Under the pieces are notes generated by a model. That model did no database searches. It was not told the DNA's origin and saw only the letters and a program-made list of their open reading frames with translations. A stretch of 32,046 nt of DNA from Terriglobia bacterium. GTDB lineage: Bacteria > Acidobacteriota > Terriglobia > Terriglobales > Acidobacteriaceae. Within the stretch, counting starts at the first letter, position 1. Every line of letters starts with the position of its first letter. Made by a program: the position numbers and the translations under genes. Below, piece after piece: positions 2,775 to 30,384 of this stretch. The DNA lies in NCBI GenBank assembly GCA_020073105.1, contig JAIQFW010000064.1, positions 1-32,046 of the forward strand, written 5' to 3'.

Positions 2775-3033
2775 CGTAAGACTCCTCCCACGCCCGTGAG
2801 ACTAGCCGAGGACTATTGCACGGCGGGGGCTCTCGACTTTCACACCGCAAGGGCACCCCAATACGGCGGGCCGAACGGCAGAATTATGTTCTTGCTCGAC
2901 CCAAGTCGTCAACTGGAGAAATCAGCGATAGCACTCCTTAACGAAGCCCATGCACAAAGCCGTGCAAGTTGAGCTATTTCGTATCATCCCTGTTCATTTT
3001 ATGTCATACCCGAATAAATGTCGTTCACAGATA

Positions 3034-3061
3034 ATATGTCATATGGTAATATATGTGACAT
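3034..3061. promoter_or_regulatory. Likely AbrB autoregulatory operator
   Basis: ATATGTCATAT (3034-3044) and ATATGTGACAT (3051-3061) form an interrupted inverted repeat whose cores, ATGTCA at 3036-3041 and TGACAT at 3056-3061, are exact complements. A third half-site, ATGTCATA, is at 3001-3008. AbrB-type antitoxins commonly bind such AT-rich inverted repeats at their own promoter (family knowledge). The right arm touches the ATG at 3060, so binding would also block initiation. Confidence 0.5.
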
Positions 3062-3311
3062 GGCACAAGAAGCTCGGACCCGCATTAACGAAAACGGGCG
3101 AGTCGTGATCCCAGCGCCCTTTCGCAAGGCGCTGGGCATGAACATAGGAGATGAGGTTGTATTGCGTCTCGAAGACGACGAGATCAGAATCTTGACGATG
3201 AAGAAACGCCTGGATCGAGCCCGGCGTCTGGTTCGGAAATACGTCAAGCCCGGCGTTTCATTGGCCGACGAGTTGATCGCCGAGCGCCGCGAGGCGGCAA
3301 AACATGAATAG
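3060..3311 (+). CDS. AbrB/MazE-family (SpoVT-AbrB domain) antitoxin
   Basis: 83 residues, beginning MAQEARTRINENGRVVIPAP. The swapped-hairpin AbrB core (residues about 5-48) is plain: R-x-x-[IV]-N-x-x-G-R-[VI]-x-[IV]-P, then FRKALGM, GDEV and the LEDDEIRIL strand. The basic and acidic C-terminal tail (about 49-83) is the expected toxin-binding region. An upstream in-frame ATG at 3018 exists, but it would place the operator repeats inside the gene and add 14 residues outside the domain, so 3060 is preferred. The stop overlaps the toxin start by 8 nt, the usual coupled arrangement. The protein would bind DNA to repress the pair and would neutralise the PIN toxin encoded next. Family assignment is firm; the toxin-antitoxin role is inferred from pairing. 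Confidence 0.88.
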   Translation: MAQEARTRINENGRVVIPAPFRKALGMNIGDEVVLRLEDDEIRILTMKKRLDRARRLVRKYVKPGVSLADELIAERREAAKHE

Positions 3312-3690
3312 TATTGTATTGGACGCATCCGCTCTCCTGGCCGTATTGGCTGATGAACCTGGGGCCGAGAAACTGACGCCCGAATTGCTTGGCATGGCAA
3401 CCAGCAGCACGGTTAATCTGGCTGAGGTGCAAGGAAAGCTGTTGAGACGGGGTATGGATCCGGACGAGGCATGGGAAGCCGCACTGAGCCCCCTGCGGGA
3501 GCCCTCACCATTTACCGAAGAACACGCCAAGCTTGCGGGCAGTCTGGTTTTGCAGACAGGTATGTCTGGTTTGTCCCTGGGAGATCGAGCTTGCCTGGCT
3601 CTCGGAATGACTCTGCATTCTCCCGTCTACACGACCGACCGCGTATGGAAGAATTTGAAACTGGGCGTACGCATCCATGTACTTCGCTGA
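3304..3690 (+). CDS. PIN-domain RNase toxin (VapC-like)
   Basis: 128 residues forming one PIN domain. The four acidic residues expected to hold the catalytic metal are visible: D7 in VLDASALLA, E41 in NLAEVQGKL, D94 in LGDRACLALG and D112 in YTTDRVW. Proteins of this family are Mg-dependent endoribonucleases that often cut tRNA or rRNA; the target here cannot be read from sequence. The start overlaps the antitoxin stop by 8 nt, implying translational coupling, and there is no separate promoter. Length is normal for the family and all key residues are present, so it is probably active. The downstream gene could start inside its 3' end (3677) if the longest frame is used. Confidence 0.9.
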   Translation: MNSIVLDASALLAVLADEPGAEKLTPELLGMATSSTVNLAEVQGKLLRRGMDPDEAWEAALSPLREPSPFTEEHAKLAGSLVLQTGMSGLSLGDRACLALGMTLHSPVYTTDRVWKNLKLGVRIHVLR

Positions 3691-10299: not shown

Positions 10300-11783
<1,484 letters not shown>

Positions 11784-11829
11784 CGCTGCTGGGGCACAGT
11801 CTATCGGAGTCTTGTTACCTTTTGTGGGG

Positions 11830-11859
11830 TTGTTCGTCCAACTCCGTCAGGCTTACAAT
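11830..11859 (+). promoter_or_regulatory. Possible sigma-70 promoter of the M13 peptidase gene
   Basis: TTGTTC at 11830-11835 and TACAAT at 11854-11859 are separated by 18 nt and lie 28 nt before the ATG at 11888. The -10 is a 5/6 match; the -35 is weaker. The placement suits the divergent arrangement with thiC. Confidence 0.4.
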
Positions 11860-11887
11860 CGCGGGTTCCATTTCCAACGAGGTTTCT

Positions 11888-13924
11888 ATGCGCCTTTGCC
11901 GTTTGCTACCAGCATTCCTTCTCCTTCTCGCCGCTGGCTTCGCTCAAACTGCTTCCATCCCGAAGCCCGGTCCCGGGTTCAGCATCGACAACATCGACAA
12001 GACCATCGACCCCTGTGTCGATTTCTACCAGTACGCGTGCGGCCACTGGCTGAAAGCATCCGAGGTCCCCGCAGATCAGAGCATATGGGTGAGCTTTGTT
12101 GAACTGGACGAGCGCAATCTGGTGACCTTGCACGACATTCTGGAAAAGACGTCTGCCAACGACCCCGGCCGTGATGCCGTCAATCAGAAAATCGGGGATT
12201 TCTATAGCTCTTGCATGGATGAGAAGGCGGCGGACGCAGGGGGCCTCGGTCCCCTCAAACCGGAACTTGACCGCATCGCCGCAGTGAAGGACAAGGCAGG
12301 GTTGATCGTTGCCATCGCGCGCGTACACCTTGTCAGCAACAACCCGCTGTTCAACTTCTATTCCGCGTCTGATCTTCACAATGCCAATCAGGTGATCGCC
12401 TACATCGACCAGGGCGGATTGTCCTTGCCCGACCGTGATTACTACATCAAGGAAGACGCCCGCATGGTGGAAATGCGCAAGCATCTGGTGGAGTACGTGA
12501 CTCAGTTGTTCACGCTTGCCGGGCAATCAGCGGAACAAGCCGCCGCCTCGGCCCAGACGGTGTTGCGGATCGAAACTGCATTAGCGAAAGCCTCCATGGA
12601 CCGGACTATGCGCCGCGATCCCCGAAACCGAGATCACAAGATGACCCGAGAGGCGGCAGCTAGCCTGGCGCCGAATTTCTATCTCGACCGCTATTTTGCC
12701 GCCTCGGGGACACCCGCTTTTTCCGAACTCAACGTGGGCAACCCGGACTTCTTCAAGCAGGTGAATGGACTCCTGGATTCCGAACCACTCGACAACTTGA
12801 AGACCTACGTCAGTTGGCACCTGCTACGAGGGGCGGCGCCCTGGCTTTCGCAGCCGTTCGTGGAAGCGAACTTCAAGATGCGGCAAGCGTTGTACGGGCA
12901 GAAGGAAATCCAGGCGCGGTGGAAACGCTGCGTAGAGCTTACCGACCAGGATCTGGGAGAGGCACTAGGGCAGAAATACGTTGACGTCACATTCGGGGCC
13001 GAGGGTAAACAACGCATGCTGAAGATGGTCGACGCGCTGGAGAAATCTCTGGATGAGGACATTCAGGGGCTACCCTGGATGACCGACGAGACCAAAAAGC
13101 AGGCCAAGGTCAAACTGCAGGCCATTCGCAATAAGATCGGATATCCCGATATATGGCGCGACTACAGTTCGGTGGCCATTGTGCGGAGCGATCTGCTGGG
13201 GAACGTGATGCGCGCCACCGAATTCGAATCCAATCGGCAGATCGCCAAGATTGGCAAGCCGCTTGACCGGAAGGAGTGGGGCATGACTCCGCCCACGGTG
13301 AACGCATATTACAACAGTTCCTACAACGAGATCGTATTTCCCGCAGGTATCCTGCAGCCGCCGTTCTTCGACAAGCAGATGGACGATGCGGTGAACTTCG
13401 GGGGCATCGGACTGGTGATCGGGCACGAACTCACGCATGGTTTTGACGATCAGGGGCGCAAGTTCGATCCGCAGGGCAACCTGCGCGACTGGTGGACCGC
13501 GGAAGACGGCAAGGAATTTGAGAAACGCGCCAGTTGCGTTGCCGATGAATACAGCAATTTTGTCGTGGTGGACGACCTGAAACTGAACGGCCGGCTCACC
13601 CTGGGTGAAAACACCGCGGACAATGGCGGCGCTCGCGTCGCACTGATGGCGCTTGAGCACATGATCGCCGACGACAAAACCGGCAAAGCCGGCCAGAAGA
13701 TCGATGGCTACACGCCGGAGCAGAGGTTCTTTCTGGGATTCGGGCGGGTTTGGTGCGAGCAGCGGCGCCCCGAGTTCGCGCGGGCGCAGGTGACTACCAA
13801 TCCCCACTCTCCAGGAAGATACCGCGTGAACGGTGTGGTGCAGAACATGCCGGAGTTCCAGAAGGCCTGGGGTTGCAAAGCGGGACAGCCGATGGTCAGC
13901 GCCAACGCCTGCCGCGTCTGGTAG
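11888..13924 (+). CDS. Secreted M13 (neprilysin-like) zinc metallopeptidase, copy 1
   Basis: 678 residues from the ATG at 11888, with GAGG 6 nt upstream. The signal peptide MRLCRLLPAFLLLLAAGFAQ sends it out of the cytoplasm. The M13 N-terminal domain opens with DPCVDFYQYACGHWLK (about 41-55). The catalytic domain carries NAYYNSSYNEIVFPAGILQP (about 472-491), the zinc site HELTH (513-517, E514 catalytic) and E574-N-T-A-D578 (third ligand and supporting Asp). It ends with the family's SANACRVW tail. M13 enzymes are oligopeptidases that cut before hydrophobic residues. All active-site residues are intact. A second M13 gene of the same architecture lies at 28032-30125. A long in-frame extension upstream to 11651 overlaps thiC and is not used. 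Confidence 0.95.
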   Translation: MRLCRLLPAFLLLLAAGFAQTASIPKPGPGFSIDNIDKTIDPCVDFYQYACGHWLKASEVPADQSIWVSFVELDERNLVTLHDILEKTSANDPGRDAVNQKIGDFYSSCMDEKAADAGGLGPLKPELDRIAAVKDKAGLIVAIARVHLVSNNPLFNFYSASDLHNANQVIAYIDQGGLSLPDRDYYIKEDARMVEMRKHLVEYVTQLFTLAGQSAEQAAASAQTVLRIETALAKASMDRTMRRDPRNRDHKMTREAAASLAPNFYLDRYFAASGTPAFSELNVGNPDFFKQVNGLLDSEPLDNLKTYVSWHLLRGAAPWLSQPFVEANFKMRQALYGQKEIQARWKRCVELTDQDLGEALGQKYVDVTFGAEGKQRMLKMVDALEKSLDEDIQGLPWMTDETKKQAKVKLQAIRNKIGYPDIWRDYSSVAIVRSDLLGNVMRATEFESNRQIAKIGKPLDRKEWGMTPPTVNAYYNSSYNEIVFPAGILQPPFFDKQMDDAVNFGGIGLVIGHELTHGFDDQGRKFDPQGNLRDWWTAEDGKEFEKRASCVADEYSNFVVVDDLKLNGRLTLGENTADNGGARVALMALEHMIADDKTGKAGQKIDGYTPEQRFFLGFGRVWCEQRRPEFARAQVTTNPHSPGRYRVNGVVQNMPEFQKAWGCKAGQPMVSANACRVW

Positions 13925-14264: not shown

Positions 14265-14744
14265 ATGTCCAGTCAAAGCGGCAAGTACCTGAAATTCGGC
14301 GGTGCCACTGCCGTCATCCTGTTGATGCTGGGGTATCTGGCGTACACCGGCGTGCAGGAGAGCAAGAGCTACTACGTCACTATCAAGGAACTCCACACCA
14401 TGGGTGACGGTGCCTACACCAAACGCCTACGAGTCGCCGGAAATGTGCAGCCTGGCTCGATCAAGCGAACCGGCACCAAGGTCGAATTCGTACTGGTTGA
14501 AAATGACCAACTGCTCCCGGTGGTGTATAGCGGCACCGAAGCCCCGCCGGACACTTTTAAGGACAACTCCCAGGCGCTGGCGGATGGCAGTTTCGGACGT
14601 GACGGTGTTTTCCGTGCGAAGCAACTGCAAGCCAAATGTGCGTCCAAGTATGCGCCGCAGCAGCCCGGAACCGGCGCGTCCCCCGCTGAACCCTCCAAAA
14701 GCATGACTCAAGTGCAGACCGGCGCCGGCGGAATGACCAACTAG
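14265..14744 (+). CDS. ccmE: Cytochrome c maturation haem chaperone CcmE, CxxxY variant
   Basis: 159 residues from the ATG at 14265. One N-terminal membrane anchor (FGGATAVILLMLGYLAYTGV, residues 11-30) is followed by the OB-fold CcmE domain: SYYVTIKELHTMGDGAYTKRL, RVAGNVQPGSI, VEFVLVEN, LPVVYSGTEAPPDTFKD, ADGSFGRDGVFRAKQLQAKCASKYAP. CcmE normally holds haem through a histidine in H-D-E-x-Y; here the same place reads C125-A-S-K-Y129. A CxxxY CcmE is known from archaea and some bacteria such as Desulfovibrio, in a System I variant without CcmH. The protein would take haem from CcmABCD in the periplasm and pass it on for attachment to apocytochrome c. It heads the operon, with ccmA 196 bp downstream. 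Confidence 0.88.
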   Translation: MSSQSGKYLKFGGATAVILLMLGYLAYTGVQESKSYYVTIKELHTMGDGAYTKRLRVAGNVQPGSIKRTGTKVEFVLVENDQLLPVVYSGTEAPPDTFKDNSQALADGSFGRDGVFRAKQLQAKCASKYAPQQPGTGASPAEPSKSMTQVQTGAGGMTN

Positions 14745-14795: not shown

Positions 14796-14940
14796 GGGCG
14801 AGCGAAACTCGCCGGTTCTGCGGTTGAGAACATTTTTCAACCACGCTAGGGTCGTCGCTGCTCTGCATGGCCCTGCGACCCCTCGACTTCGCGTCCCGGT
14901 TCAGATATCTTCACTCAGTTCAAATCGTGTCCCGTCTACC

Positions 14941-15609
14941 GTGAGCGACTCTCCGATCATTACCGTCACCGGTCTGGTCAAACAGTTCGGACGGTTTGCC
15001 GCTTTGCGCGGGGTGAACGCCACTTTTGCACCTGGCCGTTTGTACGCCATCCTTGGCGACAACGGAGCAGGGAAGACCACTTTGCTGCGTTCTCTTGCCG
15101 GACTCGCTCCGCCGACCCGCGGGACCATTTCCATGTTGGGGACCACAAAACTGCGCGACGTATGTGCGCAGCTCGGATATATGGCGCATCCTTCGCTGCT
15201 CTACGACGAGATGAGCGGGATGGAGAACCTGCGCTACTTCGCTCGCCTTTACGGCATCACCGAGGACGCCCGGTGCGAAGGTGTGATTCGCGCCGTCAAA
15301 CTCGATCCGGTCTTGGAACGGCCCGTCGGGCAGTACTCTCAGGGCATGCGGCAACGCATGTCCCTGGCCCGGGCCCTGCTGAACGATCCCAGGATCTTGC
15401 TGCTGGACGAGCCGTTCTCCAATGTCGACGTGCGCTCCGCCCGCGAGATGGCCGGGTTACTCAGAGACCTGCGCGACCATGGCAAGACACTCTTCGTGGT
15501 TACTCATCAGGCATCTCTGCTCGAAAGCATCGCGGACGAATTTGTGTGGATGGAATCCGGGCAGATCGTGGACCGTACGCCTGACCTGCGGCGAGGGGAA
15601 ACGGCATGA
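14941..15609 (+). CDS. ccmA: Haem exporter ATP-binding protein CcmA
   Basis: 222 residues from GTG 14941. An ATG at 14824 would add 39 residues unlike any ABC domain, so GTG is preferred, although its ribosome site is weak. It is a single ABC ATPase: Walker A GDNGAGKT (39-46), signature YSQGMRQR (132-139), Walker B ILLLDE (152-157) and switch H189 in FVVTHQ. CcmA works with CcmB, CcmC and CcmD in the inner membrane; its ATP hydrolysis releases haem-loaded CcmE from CcmC (family knowledge). The stop overlaps ccmB by 4 nt (ATGA). The assignment as CcmA rests on the neighbours as much as on sequence. Confidence 0.92.
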   Translation: MSDSPIITVTGLVKQFGRFAALRGVNATFAPGRLYAILGDNGAGKTTLLRSLAGLAPPTRGTISMLGTTKLRDVCAQLGYMAHPSLLYDEMSGMENLRYFARLYGITEDARCEGVIRAVKLDPVLERPVGQYSQGMRQRMSLARALLNDPRILLLDEPFSNVDVRSAREMAGLLRDLRDHGKTLFVVTHQASLLESIADEFVWMESGQIVDRTPDLRRGETA

Positions 15610-16283
15610 GCGGGATTTCAGGGATTACTCGAGTGACTCTCGTCAAGGACCTCCGCCTGGAATGGCGCTCAAAGGATGCCATCAATTCCATGCTATTTTT
15701 TTCTCTGCTGGTGGTGGTGATCTTCAGTTTTTCCTTCGATCCCACGGCCGAAGAGTCCAGGCGCATTGCCGGCGGGCTGGTGTGGGTGGCGTTTCTTTTC
15801 GCCGCGGTGGTGGCACTGAACCAGACCTGGGCGCGCGAACTGCGTAATCAAGTGCTCGATGCTTACCGAGTGTCGCCGGCTCCGGCAAACTCGTTGTTTC
15901 TGGCTAAGGCCCTGGGCAACTTCATCTTCGTCACGGTTCTGGAAGCCCTGATGACGCCGCTGTTCATCGTTTTCTACAATTTGCGTGCCATCGGGCCGGC
16001 CTACCAGCTGTTCCTGGTTGCCGTTCTCGGAACCTGGGCCCTGGTAGTGAATGGGACGTTCTTTGCCGCCATGTCGCTGCGCACGCGCAACCGTGAGATC
16101 ATGCTGCCTTTGTTGCTTTTCCCGATCTCAATACCCGCTCTGTTGGCCATGGTGGAAGCCACCACCTCTATCCTGACTGGCGAATTTTCCGCCAAGTTCT
16201 GGATCGTGTTGCTTGTGGCCTACGATGTGGTGTTTACTACGGGGTGTCTGCTCTTGTTTGAAATTGTTTTACACGGAGAATGA
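15606..16283 (+). CDS. ccmB: Haem exporter membrane protein CcmB
   Basis: 225 residues with about six membrane segments. The family start is visible: an N-terminal LVKDLRLEWRSKDAINSMLFFSLLV amphipathic entry, then GGLVWVAFLFAAVVALNQTWARE (about 57-79), LRNQVLDAYRVSPAPANSLFLAKAL and the LPLLLFPISIPALLAMVEAT block (about 159-178). CcmB is the ABC permease partner of CcmA. The start overlaps the ccmA stop as ATGA and the stop overlaps the ccmC start in the same way, so translation is coupled. Confidence 0.93.
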   Translation: MSGISGITRVTLVKDLRLEWRSKDAINSMLFFSLLVVVIFSFSFDPTAEESRRIAGGLVWVAFLFAAVVALNQTWARELRNQVLDAYRVSPAPANSLFLAKALGNFIFVTVLEALMTPLFIVFYNLRAIGPAYQLFLVAVLGTWALVVNGTFFAAMSLRTRNREIMLPLLLFPISIPALLAMVEATTSILTGEFSAKFWIVLLVAYDVVFTTGCLLLFEIVLHGE

Positions 16284-16969
16284 AGCGGCCTTTCACCATT
16301 CTCGCTGTTCTGACCGCCGCCCTGCTGAGCTGGGGACTCTACGGCGCGCTGGTCACTGCCCCGACTGAGCAGACGATGGGTGACGTGCAGCGGATCTTCT
16401 ATTACCACGTGCCTTCGGCGTGGACAGCCTTCTGTCTGTTCTTTGTGAACCTGGTCGCCTCGATCGCATATCTTGCGCGGCGTAACCCCAAGGCCGATGC
16501 CCTGGCCCTGGCGTCCGCGGAGGTCGGCGTTGTGTTCTGCACCATCGTATTGGTGACTGGCCCCATCTGGGCGCGGCCGGTATGGGGAATCTGGTGGACC
16601 TGGGACCTGCGTCTCACGCTGACTCTGGTGTTGTGGCTGATTTATGTGAGCTACCTCATCCTGCGGCGTTTTTCCAGCAGCGGCCAGACTCCGGTGATGG
16701 CGGCGGTGCTGGCTGTGCTCGGTGCGCTGGACGTTCCGCTGGTCTATTTCTCGATCTGGTTTTTCCGTACCCAGCATCCGCAGCCGGTCATGGGTGGAGG
16801 CGGCTCGATTGACCCGCGCATGCTGCACGTATTTTTCATCAACCTGGCGGCATTTTCCTGCTTCGGCGCGCTGGTGTGCTGGTCGCGTTACCGGCTTGAA
16901 GTGGTCCGCCGGGAAGTGGAAGAAGCCCAAGCCCTGGAGTCGCTGCTTGCACCAAGGGGTTCTCGATGA
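16280..16969 (+). CDS. ccmC: Haem-handling membrane protein CcmC
   Basis: 229 residues with about six membrane segments. The periplasmic tryptophan-rich haem motif VWGIWWTWDLRLT (about 101-113) is clear, and the two expected axial histidines are H43 (FYYHVPSAW) and H166 (FRTQHPQPV). CcmC loads haem onto CcmE. The gene overlaps ccmB and ccmD by ATGA on each side. Members of the wider family (CcsA, CcmF) share the WWD motif, but length and position fit CcmC. The cytoplasmic C-terminal tail (about 205-229) is charged. Confidence 0.94.
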   Translation: MKRPFTILAVLTAALLSWGLYGALVTAPTEQTMGDVQRIFYYHVPSAWTAFCLFFVNLVASIAYLARRNPKADALALASAEVGVVFCTIVLVTGPIWARPVWGIWWTWDLRLTLTLVLWLIYVSYLILRRFSSSGQTPVMAAVLAVLGALDVPLVYFSIWFFRTQHPQPVMGGGGSIDPRMLHVFFINLAAFSCFGALVCWSRYRLEVVRREVEEAQALESLLAPRGSR

Positions 16970-17088
16970 GCTATTTGTATGCCGCCTACATCGCCACCTG
17001 GGCCATTCACATCGCCTATCTGGCAAGCCTGCTCCGCCGCTACACCCGCCTGCGCAAAGAGATCGACGAATTAAGGGGCAAGCAATAG
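16966..17088 (+). CDS. ccmD: Small haem exporter subunit CcmD
   Basis: 40 residues, starting inside the ccmC stop (ATGA). The protein is one membrane helix (YLYAAYIATWAIHIAYLASL, residues 3-22) followed by a charged cytoplasmic tail LLRRYTRLRKEIDELRGKQ. This is the size, topology and gene position of CcmD, which holds CcmABC and CcmE together. Sequence alone is too short to prove it; the operon context makes it very likely. No ccmF, ccmG or ccmH follows within the window. Confidence 0.85.
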   Translation: MSYLYAAYIATWAIHIAYLASLLRRYTRLRKEIDELRGKQ

Positions 17089-21683: not shown

Positions 21684-22337
21684 CTAAATCTCTAATTCAC
21701 TTTTGAGGGTGCCCCGCTCAAGCTCCGCTTGGGCGGGGGCTTTGTGTGTAGAACGAATCCGAACCGTGGGCACAAACCCCAACCTCTCTCGTCGCCGCGC
21801 CGTCCATTGCGATTCGATCTCCACCACTCCGTCCGCTCCGGTCGCGTAGTGCAGGAAGCTGCTCCATGGCCAATCTTCCGGCCGCTTCACCAGTCCGCGA
21901 GCAACCGGATTGCGATGGATGTAGCGCAGCTTCTCGACAAACTTCCCTTCGCTCCATACATTGAAGTCGTAGTACCGCGCTTGCCAGAACGAATCGGGGG
22001 CCCGCAGAGCTAAGGTTCGCGCCACGGACTGCTTCAGCGACTGCAGCATCTGCGCCAGGTGGCCCCGTTCCGGTTCGTCCACCAGCAAATGCACGTGCTC
22101 GGGCATGACCACGTAACCGTACACGCACAATCCGTAGGATTGGCGTACCCGCTCCAGAGAGGATTCGAAACAGGCTCGCGATTGCGGAGTGGCGAAGTTG
22201 GGCCGACGACGATAGCAACTGAAGGTGAGAAAATGCAGCCTGCCCGGATTGCCGGAAGTGTCGTAGTCCCCAGGGCATGGGAAAACTTTAGTCTTAGATG
22301 GAAAGACATTCTGTGACCAGTGAACACCCCCGCCCAA
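21684..22337 (-). CDS. REP-associated tyrosine transposase (RAYT, IS200-like HUH), frame probably disturbed
   Basis: RAYTs are single-copy HUH nucleases linked to REP hairpins. This frame gives 217 residues. Family core: LHFLTFSCYRRRPNF, YVVMPEHVHLLVDEPE (the HUH pair is H-V-H) and FVEKLRYIHRNPVARGLV, whose tyrosine is the expected nucleophile, then DWPWSSF. The normal family start is MP[WG]GL..F; it is present at 22278 (MPWGLRHFRQSGQ) but in another frame. Removing one G (plus-strand CC at 22239-22240) joins it to LHFLTFSCY, aligning residue for residue with the second RAYT in this window. The current frame must start upstream, inside the REP hairpin (22337), and its last residues (AQAELERGTLK) are also encoded by a REP hairpin. 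It is either a decayed copy or one with a changed N-terminus. Confidence 0.8.
   Translation of the reverse strand: MGGGVHWSQNVFPSKTKVFPCPGDYDTSGNPGRLHFLTFSCYRRRPNFATPQSRACFESSLERVRQSYGLCVYGYVVMPEHVHLLVDEPERGHLAQMLQSLKQSVARTLALRAPDSFWQARYYDFNVWSEGKFVEKLRYIHRNPVARGLVKRPEDWPWSSFLHYATGADGVVEIESQWTARRRERLGFVPTVRIRSTHKAPAQAELERGTLKSELEI
21706..21739 (+). repeat. RAYT element 1 left REP hairpin
   Basis: GGGTGCCCC core, then CCCCGCTCAAGC pairs with GCTTGGGCGGGG (one T-G wobble) around TCC. It also encodes part of the transposase C-terminus on the other strand. Confidence 0.7.
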
Positions 22338-27406: not shown

Positions 27407-27892
27407 TCATCCCGCAATCTCCACCGGCCACTCGTAGCAGTTCACTCTCACCGGGCCGGGTTCCCGCAGCGCATACCAGCGGAAACTGCTCCACCGCCAG
27501 TCCTCAGGGTTAGCAACCAAACCACGAACCACCGGGTTCTGGTGCATGTAGCCCAACTTCTCCGCTCGTTTCTTCGGGCTCCACACATTGAAGTCGTAGA
27601 AGCGCTCCTGCCAGATGGGCGCCTTCATCCGCTGCGCAAAGCATTGCTTCAGGACCTGCATCACGGTTGAGGGTGTGCCAACGTCGGGCTCCGTAATCAG
27701 CCAATGGAAATGTTCGGGCATGACCACGTATCCGGCGACAGAGAAGCGGTACCGCTGGCGCACTTGTTCCATGATTTGCAGGAAGAGGTCGCGACGTACC
27801 GCTGTTCCGAGAAGAGGCCGACGGCGATAACAGCTGCAAGTGATGAAGTGGAGGTCGTGACCACCGTAGAACCGCTCAAGACCGCCAGGCAT
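27407..27892 (-). CDS. REP-associated tyrosine transposase (RAYT, IS200-like HUH), intact
   Basis: 161 residues, starting with the family N-terminus MPGGLERFYGGHDLHFITCS. The HUH motif is YVVMPEHFHWLI (H-F-H) and the nucleophile tyrosine lies in AEKLGYMHQNPVVRGLV; WQERFYDFNVW and DWRWSSFRW are also conserved. RAYTs nick at REP sequences and are thought to spread them while being single copy themselves. All catalytic residues are present, so the protein may be active. It has a shorter C-terminus than the other RAYT here and clearly differs in sequence, so the two elements are not a recent duplication. It is flanked by its own REP pair, whose stem differs from those of element 1. Confidence 0.9.
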   Translation of the reverse strand: MPGGLERFYGGHDLHFITCSCYRRRPLLGTAVRRDLFLQIMEQVRQRYRFSVAGYVVMPEHFHWLITEPDVGTPSTVMQVLKQCFAQRMKAPIWQERFYDFNVWSPKKRAEKLGYMHQNPVVRGLVANPEDWRWSSFRWYALREPGPVRVNCYEWPVEIAG

Positions 27893-28031: not shown

Positions 28032-30125
28032 TCACCACACCCTGCAGGCATTCGCGTGCACCATGGTCCGCCCGGCGTGGCAGCCAAAGGCGTGAGCGAA
28101 CTCCGACATGTTGGCCACCACATTATTCACTCGATATCGGTTCAGCGAGTGCCCCTGGGTCATGACCGCGGTGCGTGCCGCCTCCGGGCGCGTGTCTCCA
28201 CACCAGACGTTGGCATAGCCGACGAAGAAGCTCTGTAACTCGGTCATGCCGTTGCCGGCTGGGGAATCAAGCTCCTTGCCCTGTGCCTTCAGCCTTTCCT
28301 GCAGGGCTGCCAGCGTCAGGTGAACGCCGCCGTTGTCGGCTGTGTCTTCTCCCGCAGAAAGTTTGCCGTTCTGCTTGACCCCGCCTCCGGCTTCAGGAAT
28401 GTCCTGGGTATATTCGTCCTGGATGCACTGGTCGCGCTGGTTGTAGTTGGCGGCGTCGGAGGCAGTCCACCAGTCTTTCAGATTGCCGTCAGCATCGAAC
28501 TTGCGGCCCTGGTCGTCGAAGCCGTGGGTGATCTCGTGGCCAATGACTGCGCCGATGGCGCCGTAGTTCACCGCATCGATTTCCTTGCCATCGAAAAACG
28601 GTGGCTGGAGAATTCCCGCCGGGAAGTTGATGGTATTGCTTTGCGCATCTTCGTAGGCGTTGACCGTGGGCGGCGTCATGCCCCATTCCGTACGGTCGGA
28701 AGGCTTGCCGAACTTGGCCATGCGGCGGTCGATCTCAAACTTCGCAGAGCGCTGAACATTCCCCAGGAAGTCGTTCGGCTTGATTTCCACCGCCGAGTAA
28801 TCACGCCAGCGGTCGGGATATGCAATCTTGTCCACCTGGGCGTTCAGCTTGGTGTGGGCTAGCTGCTTGGTCTGTGGGGACATCCAGGCGGCGGTGTCGA
28901 TATCCTCGTGCAGCGCTTGCTTGATGGCATTGACCATCTGCACCATGCGTTCCTTGTTCTCCGGCGGGAAGTACCGGGCTACGTAGGCCTGGCCCACGGC
29001 TTCGCCCAGGTCGGCGTCGGCGTTCAGAGAGCAGCGGCGCCAGCGTGGCTGAATCTGTTTGGCGCCGGAAAGCTGGCGTCCGAAAAAGTCGAAATTCGCC
29101 TCCAAGATCGGCTGGCTGAGAAAGGGCGCCATGAATCTCAAGGTTGAGTAGCGAAGATAGGCGCGCCAATGATCGACCGGGTGATCGGCGATCAACTTCT
29201 CCATCCCGCGGAAAAAGTCGGGCGCAAGCACGATGTACTGGGGCGAAGCCGGAGCGTTCATGGCCGTGAGATAGCGCTTCCAGTTGAACGAGGGCGTCAT
29301 CGCCTGGAGTTGCTCAAGTGACATCTTATGGTTCTGGTTCTTGGGATCGCGGCGGAGCACGATGTCCATCGCCGCGTTGGCCAGGCCGTTCTCAATGGCC
29401 AGAACCGCGGTCGCGTCACCCGCGGCCTGGGTCGGCGACACGCCGCTCAGTTCGAGCATCTTCGCAATGTATTTCACGTATTGATCGCGAATCTCGTTCG
29501 ACTTGTCGTCCGCGTTGAGGTAGAACTCTCGGCCCGGCAGGCCCATCCCGGATTGGTCGAGCACTGCCAGCGTGGTGCGGGCATCGTCGAAATCGGGAGC
29601 GGCATAGAGGCCGAACAGGACTCCGGGGTATTGGGCCTCGATGAAGTTCAGGTCGGCGGGGCGGATGATCTGGTGAATGGAGGCCACAACTTCGGGTAGC
29701 TCCGATTTCTTCTGCAGCTTTGCAATGCGATCAAGCTCGGGCTTCAGGGGCGCGATACCAGCCTTGTTGATGGCGTCCTCATTCATGCAGGCGGCGTAAT
29801 AATCTCCGGCTTTTTGCTCGATAGGAGTGCGATTCGAAGCCTTGGCCGCGTCCTCGAGGGTGTTGCGGACCGCCGAAACATTCCAGATGAAGAGTTTGGT
29901 GAAGGTGCCGGACGAGGTTTGGTCCGGGGGAATCGGGTTTGCCTTGATCCACTTGCCGCAGGCGTATTGGAAGAAATCGGAGCACGGATCCAGCGACTTG
30001 TCGATCTGGTTTGGGCTGAAGCGTTCCAGCTCAGGGAGCGATTCCGGCCCCTCGGCGGAGGCAGTTGGGAGGAGCAGAGTAAAGGAAACCACAATAGAAG
30101 CGACAAATGCTGTCAGGAGGCGCAT
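28032..30125 (-). CDS. Secreted M13 (neprilysin-like) zinc metallopeptidase, copy 2
   Basis: 697 residues from the ATG at 30125, with AAAGGA about 9 nt upstream. The signal peptide is MRLLTAFVASIVVSFTLLLP followed by TASA. The M13 N-terminal domain begins DPCSDFFQYACGKWIK (47-62). The zinc site is HEITH (530-534, E531 catalytic) with E593-D-T-A-D597. NAYEDAQSNTINFPAGILQP (about 489-508) and the NACRVW tail match the family. It shares order and motifs with the M13 gene at 11888-13924 but differs throughout, so it is an old paralogue. It should degrade peptides in the periplasm or outside. It is divergent from an M1 aminopeptidase, with 259 bp between the starts; the two could share control. 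A frame extending to 30284 is not used. Confidence 0.95.
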   Translation of the reverse strand: MRLLTAFVASIVVSFTLLLPTASAEGPESLPELERFSPNQIDKSLDPCSDFFQYACGKWIKANPIPPDQTSSGTFTKLFIWNVSAVRNTLEDAAKASNRTPIEQKAGDYYAACMNEDAINKAGIAPLKPELDRIAKLQKKSELPEVVASIHQIIRPADLNFIEAQYPGVLFGLYAAPDFDDARTTLAVLDQSGMGLPGREFYLNADDKSNEIRDQYVKYIAKMLELSGVSPTQAAGDATAVLAIENGLANAAMDIVLRRDPKNQNHKMSLEQLQAMTPSFNWKRYLTAMNAPASPQYIVLAPDFFRGMEKLIADHPVDHWRAYLRYSTLRFMAPFLSQPILEANFDFFGRQLSGAKQIQPRWRRCSLNADADLGEAVGQAYVARYFPPENKERMVQMVNAIKQALHEDIDTAAWMSPQTKQLAHTKLNAQVDKIAYPDRWRDYSAVEIKPNDFLGNVQRSAKFEIDRRMAKFGKPSDRTEWGMTPPTVNAYEDAQSNTINFPAGILQPPFFDGKEIDAVNYGAIGAVIGHEITHGFDDQGRKFDADGNLKDWWTASDAANYNQRDQCIQDEYTQDIPEAGGGVKQNGKLSAGEDTADNGGVHLTLAALQERLKAQGKELDSPAGNGMTELQSFFVGYANVWCGDTRPEAARTAVMTQGHSLNRYRVNNVVANMSEFAHAFGCHAGRTMVHANACRVW

Positions 30126-30384
30126 GGCAAGTCCTTTCCCGGGAGGTGAACGGGACGTTAGACGTTGAAGGCACGGATTTGTAACAAGTGCAGCCGAGCG
30201 AACTCCCCAACTCAACATTTTGTTATGAACTGTTGTGGCGCTGCCGGCGTGGCATTCGGGAGCACTTTCATTTTTCGAGAACATCTCGTAATCCGCTAAC
30301 GTATTTAGGGGATGCCTAGTCTAAACTGAGCCCAGCGGGGCGAGGTTCCGGCAGCACAACATCCAACAGGAAATTGGAGGGGGT
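30126..30384. promoter_or_regulatory. Divergent control region of the M13 and M1 peptidase genes
   Basis: This 259-bp gap must hold promoters for both genes. I see CAACA/TGTTG and CGAGA/TCTCG short inverted repeats near 30212-30234 and 30276-30288, but no convincing -35/-10 pair. Confidence 0.4.

Follow-up and report, generated by a model that had tools for sequence, protein, structure and literature searches.

A cysteine-type CcmE in a Terriglobia bacterium and the five-cysteine CcmH proteins that accompany such chaperones in several phyla

Here, we describe the heme chaperone gene ccmE in a 32,046-nucleotide stretch of a Terriglobia bacterium genome (contig JAIQFW010000064.1 of assembly GCA_020073105.1; the whole stretch analysed is termed the window), together with the other cytochrome c maturation (Ccm, System I) genes of the same genome and their relatives in other bacteria. 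The gene lies at 14265–14744 on the forward strand and encodes a 159-amino-acid CcmE in which Cys125 (codon TGT, 14637–14639) stands where Escherichia coli CcmE has its heme-binding histidine, H130, and Tyr129 (codon TAT, 14649–14651) lies at the axial-ligand tyrosine position. The translation contains LQAKCASKYAPQ, with the motif K-C125-A-S-K-Y129, and Cys125 aligns to the histidine of the E. coli-type CcmE chains 8ce8_E and 1sr3_A. Because the match to Pfam PF03100 (88.4 bits against a cut-off of 24.6; residues 35–132) spans positions 2–99 of the 99 in the profile, the protein is otherwise complete; it scores below the own cut-off of each of the NCBIfam CcmE models. An earlier note on this DNA had described C125xxxY129 in an otherwise normal CcmE, and the translation, the two codons and the full-length Pfam match bear this out.

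The gene heads a contiguous forward-strand series, ccmE-ccmA-ccmB-ccmC-ccmD-like, that ends at 17088. The ATPase of the heme-handling ATP-binding cassette transporter is encoded by ccmA (14824–15609; ABC_tran, 104.6 bits; TIGR01189, 123.6 bits against a cut-off of 131.6), the true start of which is likely the GTG at 14941, and is followed by ccmB (15606–16283; Pfam CcmB, 129.5 bits). Next is ccmC, assigned to heme loading onto CcmE (16280–16969; Cytochrom_C_asm, 99.7 bits; TIGR01191, 130.7 bits against a cut-off of 186), with the motif WWTWDLRLT in its product, and then a ccmD-like gene of 40 amino acids (16966–17088; TIGR04391 CcmD_alt_fam, 27.3 bits against a cut-off of 24). In the genome profile searches, no ccmF or ccmH match was seen on the contig of the window.

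Across the source assembly (5.14 megabases in 308 contigs, 97.6% complete), the CcmE profile search returned one match only, the cysteine-type (Cys-type) copy in the window, and no second, histidine-type (His-type) CcmE, so that an additional His-type gene was rejected. Another contig, C170, carries a CcmF match (34694–35692, 225 bits) and, directly after it, a CcmH match (34176–34484, 60.8 bits), which disposes of a loss of CcmH in this genome; the genes read there, side by side, are ccmF (671 amino acids), ccmH (221 amino acids) and a CcmI-like gene (160 amino acids). Two CcmF matches were counted in the genome, one of them placed on C170. The ccmH product belongs to the CcmH family (60.1 bits against PF03918) and its cysteine region reads MMCACGCNQILLECNHVGC, which does not contain LRCxxC. 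The name CcmI-like is an interpretation only, since the lone Pfam match of that protein, to HemY_N, is weak and below the cut-off. No protein in the source genome exceeded the DsbE/CcmG cut-off and no CcmG is linked, the three TlpA/ResA-like proteins at 58–63 bits all falling under the DsbE cut-off. Thus, of the three genes for which the earlier note proposed a search, ccmF and ccmH were recovered, whereas for ccmG only sub-threshold thioredoxin-like proteins were found, and the situation it named as contrary to its claim, a second His-type CcmE alongside a full ccmFGH set, does not occur. The genome has 29 cytochrome c domain matches, and System I coexists in it with System II, given that locus L206 (3427–9745) of contig C105 contains genes for ResB (262 bits), for a CcsA-like protein directly next to it (Cytochrom_C_asm, 165 bits) and, alongside these, for a multiheme cytochrome that has eight paired CXXCH stretches.

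The source genome shares the ccmABCDE plus CcmFH(I) set, including the CcmE and CcmH families, with the classical System I of E. coli, but the latter combines a His-type CcmE (HxxxY), an RCxxC CcmH and a linked CcmG, whereas the former has C125-A-S-K-Y129, a CcmH with five cysteines and no linked CcmG. System I*, as first defined for Desulfovibrio and archaea (Allen 2006 and Goddard 2010, via PMC3601427, PMC9084895 and PMC3884852; these sources are cited throughout for the portions consulted), calls for a cysteine in place of the CcmE histidine, as found here, and for a genome without CcmH, unlike the present one, in which CcmH adjoins CcmF. The definition further calls for a genome without CcmG; here, no protein passes the DsbE/CcmG cut-off, and three TlpA/ResA-like proteins come to 58–63 bits. 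CcmABC and CcmF are common to both, but the source genome adds the five-cysteine CcmH and the CcmI-like gene, and its operon includes a CcmD-like gene whereas the archaea are without CcmD.

Among 297 Acidobacteriota genomes surveyed, 181 contain CcmE, of which 160 could be typed and 21 have an untyped CcmE match. The typed set comprises 138 Cys-type and 21 His-type genomes and one borderline false match (G233), and the motif in the 138 is KC[PA]S[KR]Y, except for KCPTKY in two. Cys-type CcmE is the norm among typed Acidobacteriota genomes, not a rarity, and the same count led us to reject a stray mutation or sequencing accident as the source of Cys125. A Pfam CcmH is present in 100 of the 138 Cys-type and in all 21 His-type genomes; together with the CcmH on C170, this contradicts the statement in the earlier note that the CxxxY type goes with an absent CcmH. 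CcmE, CcmF and CcmH were all found in each of the 36 surveyed genomes of the same family, the source genome and 35 others.

Reading of the CcmH sequence covered, among the acidobacterial genomes that have the protein, 73 of 100 Cys-type genomes and 12 of 21 His-type ones. All 12 His-type genomes encode RCxxC and none the five-cysteine form; among the 73 Cys-type genomes, 60 encode the five-cysteine form, 13 gave only an APCC paralog by Pfam hit, and RCxxC is absent. The 60 genomes contribute 62 CcmH sequences of this kind, every one of which contains C-x-C-x(1-4)-C-x(6-8)-C; a fifth cysteine lies no more than 30 residues from the first in 61 of the 62, with four to six cysteines per 30 residues. 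In two of the APCC-only genomes, G171 and G261, there is in addition a linked Cys-rich CcmH that escaped the Pfam search. The APCC-type paralog itself lies distant from the ccm operon in the 13 genomes (L207, L220–L222, L224, L225, L228–L234).

Beyond Acidobacteriota, a scan of named genomes with the peptide pattern [LVI]x[ATL]KC[PA]SKY[EK], which selects Cys-type sequences by construction, gave at least 592 stretches, at least 455 of these encoding CcmE relatives. The best 80 of those relatives come from more than 10 phyla as named in the records, with sources that include Acidobacteria, Zixibacteria, Latescibacterota, Gemmatimonadota, Chloroflexi, Desulfovibrio relatives, Planctomycetota, Myxococcota, KSB1, Bacillota, actinomycetes and others. 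The earlier note had the CxxxY type known from archaea and a few bacteria; the archaeal and Desulfovibrio part agrees with published work (PMC9084895, PMC3884852), but "a few" does not survive these numbers. The 30 best-scoring CcmE loci of Chloroflexota divide into 28 Cys-type and 2 His-type, and those of Myxococcota into 6 and 24, respectively. Most of the Chloroflexota Cys-type proteins (23 of 28; loci L358–L387) end in CPS[KR]F, with phenylalanine replacing the axial tyrosine, a substitution of which four cases were known to the 2011 review (PMC3601427).

To compare CcmH types across phyla, we used a table of 241 loci with CcmF, from which loci with a CcmF shorter than 450 amino acids or with two CcmE types were excluded and in which three rows (L071, L155, L273) were relabelled Cys-rich by hand after reading. 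All 26 His-type loci with a linked CcmH carry the RCxxC form, and the 96 Cys-type loci with one divide into 83 Cys-rich, 8 CxxC, 2 three-cysteine and 3 of another form; the remaining loci, entered as "none" (109 Cys-type, 10 His-type), include short stretches that end before ccmH and are not counts of absence. Of the 91 Cys-rich or CxxC motifs counted for Cys-type loci, 2 have an arginine before the first cysteine, the three relabelled rows entering this count with misread motif strings; outside the table, the arginine also occurs in at least one further acidobacterial genome (G215). A Cys-rich CcmH stands beside Cys-type CcmE in Zixibacteria (L246), Latescibacterota (L268, L277), Gemmatimonadota (L280, L281, L300, L302), actinomycetes (L265, L276) and some Chloroflexi (L275, L287), and some form of CcmH is encoded by 28 of 50 Cys-type genomes selected as not named for Acidobacteria groups. 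The fetched Myxococcota loci of the His type all have an RCxxC CcmH (10 of 10). The CcmH of Desulfosporosinus has CxxC and one further cysteine, three in all, and that of Cytobacillus only two, widely spaced; with eight Chloroflexota loci that pair Cys-type CcmE with a CxxC-only CcmH, these cases led us to reject the five-cysteine protein as an obligatory partner of Cys-type CcmE.

The five-cysteine CcmH keeps the CcmH fold family in structural models: an AlphaFold2 model of a Cys-rich CcmH (Bryobacterales record, 22 rows; predicted local distance difference test score (pLDDT) 84.4) has as its best PDB matches the CcmH of Pseudomonas aeruginosa and E. coli (2hl7 and 2kw0; Foldseek probability 1.00, E-values 0.004 and 0.017). 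At 20 loci, a single reading frame encodes both CcmF and CcmH; 18 of these were machine-read as Cys-rich, L155 was relabelled so and L433 was not; at L288, CcmH is in a different frame from CcmF and hence unfused. A model of a fused CcmF-CcmH (pLDDT 84.9) matches the solved CcmF 6zmq with an E-value of 2.8e-26.

The co-occurrence of Cys-type CcmE and CcmH is itself no discovery, because the 2011 review already reports it: section 8 of PMC3601427 gives CcmH in about one third of bacteria with Cys-type CcmE, and names CPSKY as the commonest cysteine form, in delta-proteobacteria, Chloroflexi and Firmicutes (Stevens et al. 2011). The bacteria of that review, with a CPSKY-type CcmE and CcmH, resemble the source genome in this respect, but a changed CcmH cysteine motif and Acidobacteriota are not mentioned in the portions consulted. 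The five-cysteine form is apparently new, no description of it having been found in the consulted portions of the open-access PMC literature (including PMC12285233; subscription papers were outside the search). How heme is released from the CcmE cysteine is an open question: the review notes that a thioether is not easily broken, and in its consulted sections bioinformatics is said to have revealed no feature of other Ccm proteins that would compensate (PMC3601427). Consistently altered as it is across many Cys-type systems, the CcmH cysteine motif offers a concrete candidate for a compensating feature of this kind. The findings also show Cys-type CcmE to be widespread in bacteria and revise the view that its presence implies a lost CcmH.

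We consider it probable that the window ccmE encodes the chaperone of a Cys-type System I pathway, handing heme to a synthetase of CcmF, CcmH and the CcmI-like protein, and that the extra CcmH cysteines aid this handover. In such a pathway, CcmABCD from the window operon would present heme to CcmE, which, by analogy with the work on Methanosarcina and Desulfovibrio, would bear it on or at Cys125, the iron probably being ligated by Tyr129; in Methanosarcina acetivorans, CcmE C120A has no heme and no holo-cytochrome c is made (PMC9084895). Holo-CcmE would then deliver heme to the synthetase encoded on C170, where the five-cysteine CcmH, like ordinary CcmH, would be the thiol-disulfide partner of the apocytochrome CXXCH and probably its reductant. 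Its additional cysteines might keep Cys125 reduced, offer a thiol at heme release or hold a metal. The part of the extra thiols in heme release or metal binding is put forward as a proposal, one that CcmH-free Cys-type systems and the Chloroflexota weaken.

The history of the histidine/cysteine switch was traced on trees of CcmF (151 of 241 rows, among them a random draw of 22 Cys-type rows that lack a linked CcmH; state taken from the linked or same-genome CcmE) and CcmC (34 His-type and 75 or 76 Cys-type rows of 167). The CcmF tree requires a single change of state, against a mean of 31 after shuffling, at a branch of modest support (78), and the CcmC tree likewise requires one. A short tree combining CcmC and CcmF gave two to three changes per group, of which the well-supported branches force no more than one, and rooting CcmC against CcmF (174 columns, outgroup branch 3.3) gave an unstable order that leaves the root unsettled. 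On these sequence trees, the combination of His-type CcmE and RCxxC CcmH behaves as one lineage spread over several phyla. Because the state changes only once, the CcmE-CcmH association is essentially one event and offers no statistical proof of coupling, and it may reflect shared history rather than a functional tie; an independent-pairs test of it had one pair available and hence no power.

This single change on both trees counts against the handover role of CcmH proposed above, as do the eight Chloroflexota loci that retain Cys-type CcmE with CxxC CcmH. Both would be expected if the five-cysteine CcmH and Cys-type CcmE were merely co-inherited within one old Ccm lineage, with no functional coupling between their cysteines, an explanation to which we give somewhat less than an even chance. 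However, each of the 62 acidobacterial sequences, drawn from many families, retains four or five cysteines although spacing and neighbours vary, which places the CcmH cysteines under a constraint of some kind, and RCxxC is equally invariant in the 26 His-type loci. Also adverse to the handover role are the Desulfovibrio and archaeal systems, which function without CcmH (PMC3601427, PMC9084895), such that a Cys-type CcmE can do without the five-cysteine protein, and the 38 of 138 Cys-type acidobacterial genomes in which Pfam CcmH was not detected. These systems and genomes, and the fetched Myxococcota Cys-type loci, 8 of 9 of which have no linked CcmH (two of the nine stretches being without CcmF), would fit a plain System I* in which Cys-type CcmE needs only CcmF and CcmH is either missing or of no consequence. 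We regard this as very improbable for the source genome: its CcmH immediately adjoins CcmF, and the presence of CcmH in all 35 other surveyed genomes of the family points to retained function.

The lack of a linked CcmG and the System II genes in the same genome also count against the main reading. System II (ResB-CcsA) could mature most of the cytochromes, leaving the Ccm genes a minor or specialised route, and the position of the C105 pair beside the multiheme cytochrome favours this, but the retention of CcmE, CcmF and CcmH throughout the family opposes it, and we judge it rather unlikely. A bolder extension of the handover proposal, which we also hold to be doubtful, is that a dedicated five-cysteine CcmH (in Acidobacteriota, Gemmatimonadota, Latescibacterota, Zixibacteria and some actinomycetes, at times fused to CcmF) serves as a thiol relay or metal site that frees heme from the cysteine; the textbook pairing of His-type CcmE and RCxxC CcmH would then be a derived lineage that replaced an older chemistry.

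Several minor observations were made alongside. At locus L034 (genome G103, contig C239), a second CcmF of a high-scoring type (438 bits) occurs in a genome whose sole typed CcmE is Cys-type; elsewhere, this CcmF type was seen only in three His-type genomes of f20. In the window, a MazE-type antitoxin followed by a PIN-domain protein (3018–3690, forward strand) likely forms a toxin-antitoxin pair, two IS200-like Y1 transposase-family proteins are encoded on the reverse strand (21684–22337 and 27407–27892), and two M13-family peptidases lie at 11651–13924 on the forward and 28032–30284 on the reverse strand.
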